Of a DNA stretch of 37,574 nucleotides, positions 29,828-34,339 are shown piece by piece. The translations under genes and the position numbers were made by a program. Under the pieces are notes generated by a model. That model did not search any database. It was given only the letters and a program-made list of their open reading frames with translations, and was not told the origin of the DNA. The DNA is from Gammaproteobacteria bacterium (GTDB lineage Bacteria; Pseudomonadota; Gammaproteobacteria; Pseudomonadales; CAMLJR01). The stretch lies in contig JAJUJZ010000017.1 of NCBI GenBank assembly GCA_029265075.1, forward strand, positions 1-37,574, given 5' to 3'. Within the stretch, counting starts at the first letter, position 1, and every line of letters begins with the position of its first letter.

Positions 29828-30493
29828 TCACTTGATCGGGATGAGATCGATTTCCACCCGACGGTTCTGAGCGCGACCGGTTTCGGTTTCGTTGCTCGCC
29901 ACCGGCTGCCGCGGACCATAGCCCTGGGTGCGGATGCGCGCAGCGGGTACCTGCTGGTTGATCAGGTACTGGGCCACACTCTGGGCCCGCCGCTCGGACA
30001 GTTGCTGGTTGAATTCAAAACTGCCGGTGCTGTCGGTGTAGCCTTTAACGGCGATCTGCGTGTCCTTGAATTCGCGCAGTACCAGCGCAACGCTGTCCAG
30101 CACATCGTAGAAGTTGGGAGCAACCTGATCGCTGCTAGTGGCAAAAGTGACATTGCCCGGCATGATCAGCTTGATGTTGTCGCCGATGCGCTGTACGCGA
30201 ACCCCGGTCCCTTCCAGCCGCTGCCGCAGCTGCGCTTCCTGACGATCCATGTAATAGCCGATACCGCCGCCCGCGGCAGCACCGACCGCCGCCCCGATCA
30301 GGGCGCCTTTTTCACGGTCCTTTTTGCTGGAAGTGGCCACCCCGATCACGGCGCCAGTGGCCGCGCCGATGCCTGCCCCTTTACCGGTGTTACTCACTTT
30401 CTCCTGACCCGTGTAGGGGTCGATGGAGCAGCCAGCGACAAAAACGGCAATCAGCGCAAGCGCCGCCCAGCGAGCGGGACGAAACAGAGACAT
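29828..30493 (-). CDS. OmpA family lipoprotein with glycine-zipper domain (YiaD-like)
   Basis: A 221-residue outer-membrane lipoprotein. The start at 30493 follows AGGAG by seven bases; the track start adds 70 codons. Signal peptide ALALIAVFVAGC gives Cys22. Next is a glycine-zipper stretch (GKGAGIGAATGAVIGVATSS, then GALIGAAVGAAAGGGIGYYM), which inserts into or packs against membranes, then a C-terminal OmpA peptidoglycan-binding domain with VKGYTDSTGSFEFNQQLSERRAQSV and QGYGPRQPVASNETETGRAQNRRVEI. It should tether the outer membrane to peptidoglycan. Same layout as YiaD of E. coli. Confidence 0.92.
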   Translation of the reverse strand: MSLFRPARWAALALIAVFVAGCSIDPYTGQEKVSNTGKGAGIGAATGAVIGVATSSKKDREKGALIGAAVGAAAGGGIGYYMDRQEAQLRQRLEGTGVRVQRIGDNIKLIMPGNVTFATSSDQVAPNFYDVLDSVALVLREFKDTQIAVKGYTDSTGSFEFNQQLSERRAQSVAQYLINQQVPAARIRTQGYGPRQPVASNETETGRAQNRRVEIDLIPIK

Positions 30494-30989: not shown

Positions 30990-31101
30990 GTCTGGGTTCC
31001 TCTTATTGCTATATGGTTGTCGACCGGGGCCTGGACCTCCCTGTCGTAGCCCCGACGTATCAGCCGCGCACCGGTACCGACGCTTCCGGTCCACGCGCCC
31101 A

Positions 31102-31527
31102 CTACTGAGCCGACTGCCAGCGAATCGCCCGGCCATCGACCGTCAGCCCGACCCCCTCGCTGCGCAGCAGCTCCGCGACGGCTTCAGTGGCGGGCATCGC
31201 CCCCACCGGCACCGGAACATAGCCGACCGCGCGCCAGTTGCGCACCTCCGCCGGATGGCGCGGTGCAGCGGCCGCCGACGCCGGCTCCGCCGCCGCAAAT
31301 GGCGGCGGTGGCAAGTAAATGCAGCCGGTGGCGAGATCGACCGCGAATGCCACTACGCCCGGCACGATGCCGAACAGCAGCCCAACCGCATCCAGCCCCA
31401 CCACGGACCAGTCAACCTGACCAGCAGGCTGGCCGGTACGCTCCGGAAATATCAGATAGCCACACCCCGGTAGCTGTAACGCTGCTACAGCTATCGCCAC
31501 GGCAGCCAGGCGTCGCTTCACTCGCAT
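31102..31527 (-). CDS. Conserved hypothetical lipoprotein
   Basis: A 141-residue protein with signal peptide and lipobox LQLPGC (Cys22). The core GYLIFPERTGQPAGQVDWSV and VGLDAVGLLFGIVPGVVAFAVDLATGCIYLP is a pattern I have seen in small pseudomonad lipoproteins, with a hydrophobic segment that may sit in the membrane. The rest is Ala/Pro-rich with an unclear C-terminal domain. GGAGGAGAGGTA precedes the ATG. A perfect CRP-like core is 15-30 bp upstream of the start codon, where a bound regulator would block this gene's transcription. It is divergent from the PepSY-PhoPQ-like operon. Confidence 0.72.
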   Translation of the reverse strand: MRVKRRLAAVAIAVAALQLPGCGYLIFPERTGQPAGQVDWSVVGLDAVGLLFGIVPGVVAFAVDLATGCIYLPPPPFAAAEPASAAAAPRHPAEVRNWRAVGYVPVPVGAMPATEAVAELLRSEGVGLTVDGRAIRWQSAQ

Positions 31528-31541
31528 TACCTCTCCTCCGA

Positions 31542-31557
31542 TGTGAGCGCGATCACA
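31542..31557. promoter_or_regulatory. CRP/Vfr-like binding site
   Basis: TGTGAGCGCGATCACA is a perfect match to the TGTGA-N6-TCACA core of CRP and Vfr sites. On the plus strand a -10-like TATCAC at 31580-31585 would start transcription near 31592, placing the site centre at about -42, as in class II activation. For the minus-strand lipoprotein the site is 15 bp before the ATG, a repressing position. Confidence 0.6.
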
Positions 31558-31611
31558 CGTCTCGGCAGTCGGCCGATGGTATCACAGGGTTTCGGACGGT
31601 CCAGATACAAG

Positions 31612-31646
31612 TGTTCAGTCCCGGTTCAGCGAGCACTGCCTATGGT
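31612..31646 (+). promoter_or_regulatory. Candidate PhoP box and -10 element
   Basis: TGTTCAG at 31612-31618 and GGTTCAG at 31623-31629 are direct repeats 11 bp apart, the geometry used by OmpR/PhoP-family regulators, and close to the enterobacterial PhoP box (T/G)GTTTA repeated at 11 bp. A -10-like TATGGT begins at 31641, 11 bp past the second repeat, near the usual PhoP spacing. It would drive the PepSY-phoP-phoQ-like genes. Confidence 0.5.
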
Positions 31647-31769
31647 AGGCGGACCGTCTGTGCGCTCCGGGAGATGCGGACCGGCCAGCACGCCTGCTAG
31701 CATCCGGGTCGGCACGGACTCATCATTATCGGTATGCGGCGCGCCGGCGCTGCGCGGAGGGGCAGTCAG

Positions 31770-32240
31770 TTGAACACGCGGAGGGAAGCACCCCTCATCC
31801 GGACGCTGAGCCGGTGGCTACTGCTGCTGGCAGTGCTGGGCAGTGGTGCGGTTGTCGCCGACGTACCCGGTCAGCCGTGGCGCGATGGCAGCGGTCGCAG
31901 TGCGGGGGCACCCGGCGGACCACCACCACACGCCGCGCCGCGCCGTCACGACAGCGGTCCACGCGCCGAGCGCGGCTTCAGCCAGCGTGTGCAGTCCGGC
32001 TACCAGCGCCAGCAGGCGCCGGCCAGCCGCCAGCGCGACAGCTATCAGCGCTCGCAGCCGCCTGCCCGGCTGCATGCACCCGCCCCCCGGCGTGGGGTCA
32101 ATGATGTGATCAACATGGTTGAGCGCCGTTACGGTGGCAAGGTGGTCGGCGTCGAGGAGGCCGGCAACCACTACCGGGTCCGGCTCCTGCAGCGGGATGG
32201 GCGCGTTCGCACCCTGCAGGTCCCGCTGGACGGCTATTAG
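31770..32240 (+). CDS. PepSY-domain secreted protein upstream of phoPQ-like genes
   Basis: A 156-residue exported protein. I use the TTG at 31770, with GGAGGGG seven to eight bases upstream, in place of the track's 31734. Signal peptide LSRWLLLLAVLGSGAVVADV. A Pro/Arg/Gln-rich low-complexity middle (about 35-110) leads to a C-terminal PepSY-like domain: INMVERRYGGKVVGVEEAGN then YRVRLLQRDGRVRTLQVPLD. PepSY domains are thought to bind or inhibit proteases or sense periplasmic signals. It lies 42 bp upstream of the response regulator, so it is likely an accessory or reporter protein for the two-component system. Confidence 0.8.
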   Translation: MNTRREAPLIRTLSRWLLLLAVLGSGAVVADVPGQPWRDGSGRSAGAPGGPPPHAAPRRHDSGPRAERGFSQRVQSGYQRQQAPASRQRDSYQRSQPPARLHAPAPRRGVNDVINMVERRYGGKVVGVEEAGNHYRVRLLQRDGRVRTLQVPLDGY

Positions 32241-32282
32241 CTGCTGCCCCGGCGGTGGCTGACAGAAGCATAAGGAACTGCC

Positions 32283-32963
32283 ATGCGACTGCTACTGGTC
32301 GAGGATGAAGCAGCGTTGCGGACGCAGCTGGGTGATCAGCTCGAGCGTCATGGCTACGCCGTCGATCGGGCGGCAGACGGCCGCGAAGCACTTTATCTGG
32401 CCCAGGAATATGACTATGACCTCGCCGTCATCGACCTTGGGCTGCCGGGCATGGATGGCATCACCCTGATTCGCACTCTGCGCGAACAGCAGCGGCGCTT
32501 CCCGATTCTGGTGCTGACAGCGCGGGCGCGCTGGCAGGACAAGGTGGCCGGGCTGGAGGCAGGTGGTGACGACTACGTGGTCAAGCCGTTCCAGCTTGAG
32601 GAAGTGCTGGCGCGTCTGAATGCGCTGCTACGGCGCAGCAGCGGTTTCGCTTCGCCGCTGCTGGAATTCGGTCCGCTGCGCATCGACACCGCAGCGCAGG
32701 AGGTACAGGTAGAGGGCGCGGCCATCGAGCTGACCGCGTTCGAATACAAGGCACTGCTGTTTCTGGCCCACCGCCACGGCCAGGTGGTATCAAAAACCGA
32801 TCTCACCGAGCACCTCTACGATCAGGACTTCGACCGCGACAGCAATGTCATCGAGGTATTCATAGGCCGGTTGCGCAAGAAACTCGACCCGGGGCAGACC
32901 CTGAAACCGATCACGACCATCCGCGGTCGCGGTTACCGCTTCGAGCTGGAGCCGTCGGTCTGA
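32283..32963 (+). CDS. phoP: PhoP-like response regulator (OmpR family)
   Basis: A 226-residue DNA-binding response regulator. The receiver domain has the acidic pocket EDE (8-9), phospho-acceptor Asp51 (VIDLGLPGMDG), Thr79 and Lys101 (VVKPF). The C-terminal winged helix (about 130-220) includes LTAFEYKALLFL, VVSKTDLTEHLY, DRDSNVIEVFIGRLRKKL and TIRGRGYRF. Of the OmpR family it looks closest to PhoP/QseB; the PhoP name is by resemblance and needs a tree. The ATG is preceded by AAGGA. Next gene 26 bp on is the sensor kinase. Confidence 0.88.
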   Translation: MRLLLVEDEAALRTQLGDQLERHGYAVDRAADGREALYLAQEYDYDLAVIDLGLPGMDGITLIRTLREQQRRFPILVLTARARWQDKVAGLEAGGDDYVVKPFQLEEVLARLNALLRRSSGFASPLLEFGPLRIDTAAQEVQVEGAAIELTAFEYKALLFLAHRHGQVVSKTDLTEHLYDQDFDRDSNVIEVFIGRLRKKLDPGQTLKPITTIRGRGYRFELEPSV

Positions 32964-32989: not shown

Positions 32990-34339
32990 GTGCGCAGACA
33001 GCCCCGTTCGCTCACCTACCGGCTGCTGCTGGCGTCGCTGGTCACCTTGCCGATTTATCTGGCCGCCACCGGCTGGTTCCTCCACCGCAGCTTCACCGCC
33101 AGCCAGATGGCGGCCGCGCAGGAGCGCCTGCGCGTGCAGTTTTACGGCCTGCTGGATACCTTCGAATTCGACGCCGGTGCGCTGCATGTGGGCCGCGCCA
33201 GCGATCCGCGGCTCAACCAGCTCAACTCCGGCCTCTATGCCTATGTGCATGACCAGGATGGCGAACTGCTGTGGCAATCCTTTTCGAGCTATTCGCTGCC
33301 GCTGACCACCGCCGCTGTGCTCGGCGAAGAGCCGGCCGGGACCGGCGAAGAGCTGTTCGAGCAACAGTCCGGCAAGCCACCCTTGCTCCGTTTCCAGTAT
33401 GGTCTGCTGTGGGAGACGACCGGCGGCGATCTGCCGCTGGTGGTGACCCTGGTCGAATCAGCGGCTGCGCTGGCCGCCGAGGGGCGTGCTTTTCGCGGTC
33501 AGCTCTGGTTCCTGCTGGGCGGCGCCGCGCTGCTGCTGACGCTGGCGCAGGCGCTGATTCTGCACTGGGGCCTGCGGCCGTTGCGGCGGCTGGCTGACGA
33601 TGTCACCGAACTGGAACAGGGCCAGCGTGCGATGCTGTCGCGCAGCTATCCCGCTGAACTCCAGCCGCTGGCCAGCAATCTCAATCAGCTGCTGGAGCGT
33701 GAGCGCCGCCAGCGCGAGCGCTATCGCCATACGCTCGCCGACCTGGCACACAGCCTGAAAACACCGCTGGCAGTGCTGCAGCAGGGGACGGCAGGCGATG
33801 TTGTCGACAACGCCCTGTTGCGGGAGCAGGTCAGCCGTATGGATCAACTGATCAACTACCAGCTGCAGCGCGCCGTAGCCAGCCACAGCCGCCAGCTTGG
33901 TACCGCCACGCCGCTGCGGCCGGTCGTCGACAAACTGATCGCGACCTTTGGCAAGGTGTACTACGACAAGCGCATTCAAATGACCGTCGAGGTAGCCCCT
34001 GCCCTCCGCTGCCGGGCCGATGAAGCGGACCTGTTCGAGCTGCTTGGCAACCTGCTCGACAACGCCTGCAAGGCGTGCGATCACCGGGTTGCTGTCGGCG
34101 CCACCTTAACCGACAGCTGGCTGCTCCTGATCATCGACGACGACGGGCCCGGCATCGATGAGCAGCAGCGCGACCGCCTGCTTGGACGCGGGGAGCGGGC
34201 AGACAGCTACGAACCCGGCCAGGGCATCGGTCTCGCTGTGGTGATGGATATCATCGACAGCTATGGCGCCGAGCTCGACATCGGCCTCAGTCGCTGGCAC
34301 GGAGCGCGCTTCACCGTGCGCTGGCCAGGGCTGACCTGA
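32990..34339 (+). CDS. phoQ: PhoQ-like sensor histidine kinase
   Basis: A 449-residue membrane kinase; the GTG start follows AAGG. Two membrane helices (about 10-30 and about 165-186, QLWFLLGGAALLLTLAQALI) bracket a periplasmic sensor domain of about 130 residues. The cytoplasmic part has a HAMP-like segment, the H-box LADLAHSLKTPLAVLQ with His254, N-box LLGNLLDNACKAC, and G-boxes DDDGPGID and GQGIGLAVVMDI. The sensor region carries acidic patches (DTFEFDAGALH), but the dense acidic surface of enteric PhoQ is not obvious, so the signal is open. Followed by the oxidoreductase gene 23 bp later. Confidence 0.88.
   Translation: MRRQPRSLTYRLLLASLVTLPIYLAATGWFLHRSFTASQMAAAQERLRVQFYGLLDTFEFDAGALHVGRASDPRLNQLNSGLYAYVHDQDGELLWQSFSSYSLPLTTAAVLGEEPAGTGEELFEQQSGKPPLLRFQYGLLWETTGGDLPLVVTLVESAAALAAEGRAFRGQLWFLLGGAALLLTLAQALILHWGLRPLRRLADDVTELEQGQRAMLSRSYPAELQPLASNLNQLLERERRQRERYRHTLADLAHSLKTPLAVLQQGTAGDVVDNALLREQVSRMDQLINYQLQRAVASHSRQLGTATPLRPVVDKLIATFGKVYYDKRIQMTVEVAPALRCRADEADLFELLGNLLDNACKACDHRVAVGATLTDSWLLLIIDDDGPGIDEQQRDRLLGRGERADSYEPGQGIGLAVVMDIIDSYGAELDIGLSRWHGARFTVRWPGLT

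Follow-up and report, generated by a model that had tools for sequence, protein, structure and literature searches.

The gap at positions 31528-31769 of the window (the whole stretch of 37,574 nucleotides analysed here) very probably carries a promoter through which a PhoP-family response regulator controls its own operon, by means of a GTTCAG direct repeat that is retained at most orthologous operons of the order. A perfect CRP core lies farther upstream in the same gap, where a lineage-specific role for CRP is plausible and, in our judgement, about evenly balanced between true and false. On one side of the gap lies a small, divergently oriented minus-strand gene (31102-31527), whose lipoprotein-like product has no Pfam or NCBIfam match; on the other is a plus-strand operon encoding a PepSY-type exported protein (31770-32240), a response regulator (32283-32963), and a histidine kinase (32990-34339). 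The genome to which the window belongs comprises 2.79 Mb in 214 contigs and is 89.9% complete. All promoter and regulator assignments given here draw on sequence evidence, from which we infer binding, activation, and transcription start sites.

The repeat consists of the 7-mers TGTTCAG (31612-31618) and GGTTCAG (31623-31629), set in 11-bp phase with TCCC between them and followed 11 nt on by TATGGT (31641-31646), exactly as described in an earlier note on this DNA. Read as a PhoP box, GTTCAG-TCCCG-GTTCAG (31613-31629, plus strand) is equal to the published P. aeruginosa consensus GTTCAGNNNNNRTTCAG and conforms precisely to the Pseudomonas-type half-site rule, namely GTTCAG plus RTTCAG with a 5-nt spacer. 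TATGGT would then be the -10 element of a PhoP-dependent promoter, P2, with a predicted start near A31653. The exact GTTCAG pair together with this -10 scores 15 of 15, as opposed to a maximum of 11 in 100 dinucleotide shuffles. An Rfam scan of the leader gave no RNA element, a terminator search of the region found none, and no sigma-70 -35/-10 pair was predicted in 31100-32300.

Conservation was assessed at 22 other loci, taken across the order and including oprH-phoPQ of two named Pseudomonas species, the kinase scan of genome contigs having yielded two usable Pseudomonas relatives. A comparison of relatives for 11-bp GTTCAG repeats, of the kind that had been proposed as a check, recovered (A/G)TTCAG-N5-(A/G)TTCAG upstream of the operon in 19 of the 22, some with one half-site letter off. 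At each of these 19 loci the box outscores all 100 dinucleotide shuffles, and the boxes mostly lie 10-12 nt before TANNNT, so that most orthologues share the spacing seen in the window; coding sequence from these loci, scored as a control, contained nothing comparable. The other three loci (L060, L063, and L068) lack a box within 1200 bp. The operon of several relatives begins with a glycine-zipper gene ahead of PepSY, and the box stands before whichever gene comes first, while at L067, L071, and L072 the box is followed by an oprH-like gene and phoPQ. At L067 (G021), four successive GTTCAG half-sites in 11-bp phase occur ~738-771 bp before phoP, ahead of the oprH-like gene. Because the box is kept in so many orthologous loci, agrees with a published PhoP motif, and stands at the correct distance from a -10, there is strong support for autoregulation of the operon, with the response regulator acting through the GTTCAG repeat.

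The response regulator has PhoP as its best NCBIfam model (246 bits) and the kinase has PhoQ (237 bits, the next model scoring 90), and the best PDB sequence match of the kinase is likewise PhoQ. Both scores fall below the NCBI equivalog cut-offs of 336 bits for PhoP and 497 bits for PhoQ; however, PhoP and PhoQ of Pseudomonas citronellolis also fall under them, at 265 and 267 bits, respectively, indicating that these cut-offs do not reach this order. Judged by sequence, then, the regulator and kinase are PhoP/PhoQ relatives that score like those of Pseudomonas. Across 21 orthologues the kinase phosphoacceptor box, DLAHSLKTPLAVL, hardly varies, and HSLKTP is invariant. The periplasmic domain is modelled confidently as a mixed alpha/beta structure; the best fold-search matches of the kinase concern kinase domains and carry no information on the sensor domain. 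As for the first gene, its start is likely TTG 31770, with GGAGGGG just upstream at 31756-31762 and ATG 31734 as an alternative. The PepSY label given to it in the earlier note is undetectable in the window protein itself, which has no Pfam match of its own, but is borne out by its orthologues, since PF03413 matches 6 of 11 aligned positional-orthologue proteins and the window protein aligns with them in its C-terminal region. A gene for a small exported PepSY protein thus adjoins the regulator and kinase genes, as in a DbfQRS-like module.

The GTTCAG hexamer had been proposed as the regulator's own dialect, but this dialect is already known, being identical to the published P. aeruginosa PhoP box consensus (PMC3156716) and to the G/ATTCAG motif recovered by P. 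aeruginosa PhoP ChIP-seq (PMC7916210). What the present comparison adds is breadth, as it extends this experimentally known Pseudomonas box to many families of the order. The regulator in the window carries the recognition helix RDSNVIEV, as opposed to RESHTIDV in E. coli PhoP, and the regulators examined carry RD(S/P)NVIEV or a near variant. It is conceivable, as a hypothesis, that this change in the helix relative to E. coli PhoP accounts for the reading of C instead of T in the half-site.

Beyond the operon, the box combined with a -10 proved to be a specific search pattern, which matched exactly 31 times among 57 relatives, against 0 times for the reversed control. Its matches were enriched where the genome encodes a PhoQ orthologue (13 of 24, versus 3 of the other 33; Fisher p 3e-4). 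In the relatives, PhoP boxes precede the operon, genes for small exported His-rich proteins, OmpA-glycine-zipper lipoproteins, a glycine-zipper protein, and LysM-containing proteins of one kind, a set that suggests by its sequence features an envelope-directed output, consistent with PhoPQ. Near the operon in the window, an OmpA-glycine-zipper lipoprotein gene occurs at 29828-30493 on the minus strand, with no PhoP box of up to two mismatches just upstream; similar genes in G001 (L170) and G004 (L173) follow PhoP boxes. The strict KGTTCAG form was also tried as a regulon search and returned mostly coding-sequence noise.

A scan of the window's own genome for a regulon, also suggested in the earlier note, gave three distinct exact PhoP boxes, located at the operon, before a gene for a secreted His-rich protein (C110:10076-10092), and inside ftsZ. 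The ftsZ copies, on contigs C31 and C102, were counted as chance occurrences in one and the same piece at two contig ends; the same ftsZ end is found at G000:C31:98-131 and G000:C102:11-44, pointing to an assembly break there. This leaves one further intergenic box, whose promoter region (L006:1454-1926; G000:C110:10028-10500) also carries a CRP-like site, TGTGACCTGGCTTACA, 32 bp before the box, together with a weak -10 (CAAGCT). The gene that follows encodes a secreted, His-rich protein of 111 aa that matches no family and had no hit in a sequence search of 17 relatives. In five other genomes (L151, L154, L156, L164, and L167), PhoP boxes precede small exported His-rich proteins that sequence search does not show to be alike. 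Binding of cations or protons by His-rich exported proteins may be a recurrent output of PhoPQ.

The CRP core of the operon, TGTGAGCGCGATCACA, is a near-palindrome at 31542-31557 with 0 mismatches, as the earlier note had claimed, and it is the sole perfect core both in the window and in the genome. The genome also encodes a CRP orthologue (G000:C135:310-918) with the recognition helix SREMVGR, which scores 368 bits and so exceeds the cut-off of 266 of the curated cAMP-CRP model, leaving the c-di-GMP alternative that had been raised alongside cAMP without support. A literature search on CRP at phoPQ promoters returned nothing directly on a phoPQ promoter in this order. Whether the core functions at the operon must be weighed against the possibility that only the PhoP box matters and that the palindrome arose by chance, a reading that we regard as somewhat short of even in probability. 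From base composition, 1.0 perfect core is expected per genome of this size, CRP-like sites with up to one mismatch are not enriched genome-wide (26 versus 23 for the reversed pattern), and none of the 22 orthologous upstream regions contains the CRP site. The expectation for this particular gap, however, is just 7e-5, and the only other intergenic exact PhoP box in the genome is accompanied by a CRP-like site as well. Among 31 PhoP-box upstream regions, a CRP-like site (at least 9/10, within 120 bp) was found only in the two of this genome, and the CRP and PhoP-box pair, present twice here, occurs in 0 of 391 other genomes of the order, a contrast that is suggestive rather than proof, as the degenerate pair pattern was widened after the second site had been seen. 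The earlier proposal of CRP control thus gains from the presence of a CRP orthologue and from the recurrence of the pairing, and loses in that the site is not kept in relatives.

The position of the core invites two other readings, both of which we consider unlikely. It begins 15 bp upstream of the ATG of the divergent gene and might serve that gene, probably as a repressor site 15-30 bp before the start codon; yet no CRP-like site (at least 8/10) was found upstream of any of the four distant orthologues of that gene, and at the other CRP-PhoP site the CRP-like sequence again lies upstream of the PhoP box. Alternatively, as proposed in the earlier note, the gap might hold tandem promoters, with a class II CRP-dependent promoter, P1, at TATCAC (31580-31585, plus strand) ahead of the PhoP-dependent P2 at TATGGT. 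Classical class II CRP sites are centred at -41.5, and the distance that had been estimated at about 42 bp was measured here as 42.5 bp, from the core centre at 31549.5 to the start expected from TATCAC; moreover, a TG (31577-31578) stands one base ahead of the hexamer. Against this, TATCAC is a weak candidate -10 that ends in C rather than the conserved final T, it has no -35, no sigma-70 promoter was predicted, and the second CRP-PhoP site has no good -10 at a matching distance. Of the two proposed promoters, the autoregulated one is well supported, and a separate one at TATCAC is the less probable, given its poor hexamer and the lack of a matching arrangement at the second site. The simplest role for CRP would instead be co-regulation of the PhoP promoter from an upstream position. 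Relative to the starts predicted for the PhoP promoters, the CRP centres lie at about -103.5 (operon) and -80.5 (His-rich gene); the two distances differ by roughly two helical turns, in keeping with such an upstream role.

Taken together, the gap is most likely the promoter region of a PepSY-phoP-phoQ operon. A head-to-tail dimer of phosphorylated PhoP would occupy both GTTCAG half-sites, where a -35 is missing, recruiting RNA polymerase to TATGGT and creating a positive feedback like that of Pseudomonas oprH-phoPQ and Vibrio dbfQRS. By analogy with DbfQ and DbfS, the probable role of the small exported PepSY protein is to restrain or tune PhoQ, and in this genome the CRP site, ~100 bp upstream of the PhoP-promoter start, probably adds a cAMP (carbon-status) input. 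More tentatively, and with rather more doubt than belief on our part, the whole small PhoP regulon of this lineage may have come to be controlled by cAMP-CRP and PhoP together, an upstream CRP site having been acquired at each of its two intergenic PhoP-box promoters; envelope or cation stress would then be combined with carbon status at each promoter.

These observations are of value beyond the wider distribution of the PhoP dialect. The box and its -10 offer a ready search pattern for the regulon, with a clean negative control; the genes so reached suggest a compact envelope regulon of PepSY, glycine-zipper, OmpA-like, and His-rich exported proteins; and the CRP overlay is a case, open to testing, in which one lineage would have added a global regulator to a promoter that is conserved and autoregulated.

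Among known systems, oprH-phoP-phoQ of P. aeruginosa resembles the operon in its homologous PhoP and PhoQ, its identical box consensus, and its positive autoregulation via a box upstream of the first gene, and the PhoP regulon of that species includes slyB (PMC3156716, PMC7916210). The two differ in the first gene, which is PepSY here (glycine-zipper plus PepSY in relatives) and the porin gene oprH in P. aeruginosa, and in the CRP core, which is absent from both Pseudomonas loci tested. The dbfQRS operon of Vibrio cholerae (PMC12714742) likewise unites a PepSY gene with genes for a response regulator and a kinase; there, binding of DbfQ to the kinase shifts the latter toward its phosphatase state, and the positively autoregulated promoter is ~40-fold higher in mutants with raised DbfR phosphorylation. 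Finally, the architecture I promoters of Salmonella (mgtA, phoP, and slyB) each have one box, in direct orientation, that acts as a class II site and lies ~12 nt ahead of the -10 (PMC3335776). Their half-site is (T/G)GTTTA, as opposed to (T/G)GTTCAG here, but the direction of the box, its overlap with the -35 position, and its distance from the -10 are alike, the GGTTCA half-site ending 12 nt before TATGGT, a spacing equal to that in Salmonella (PMC3335776).
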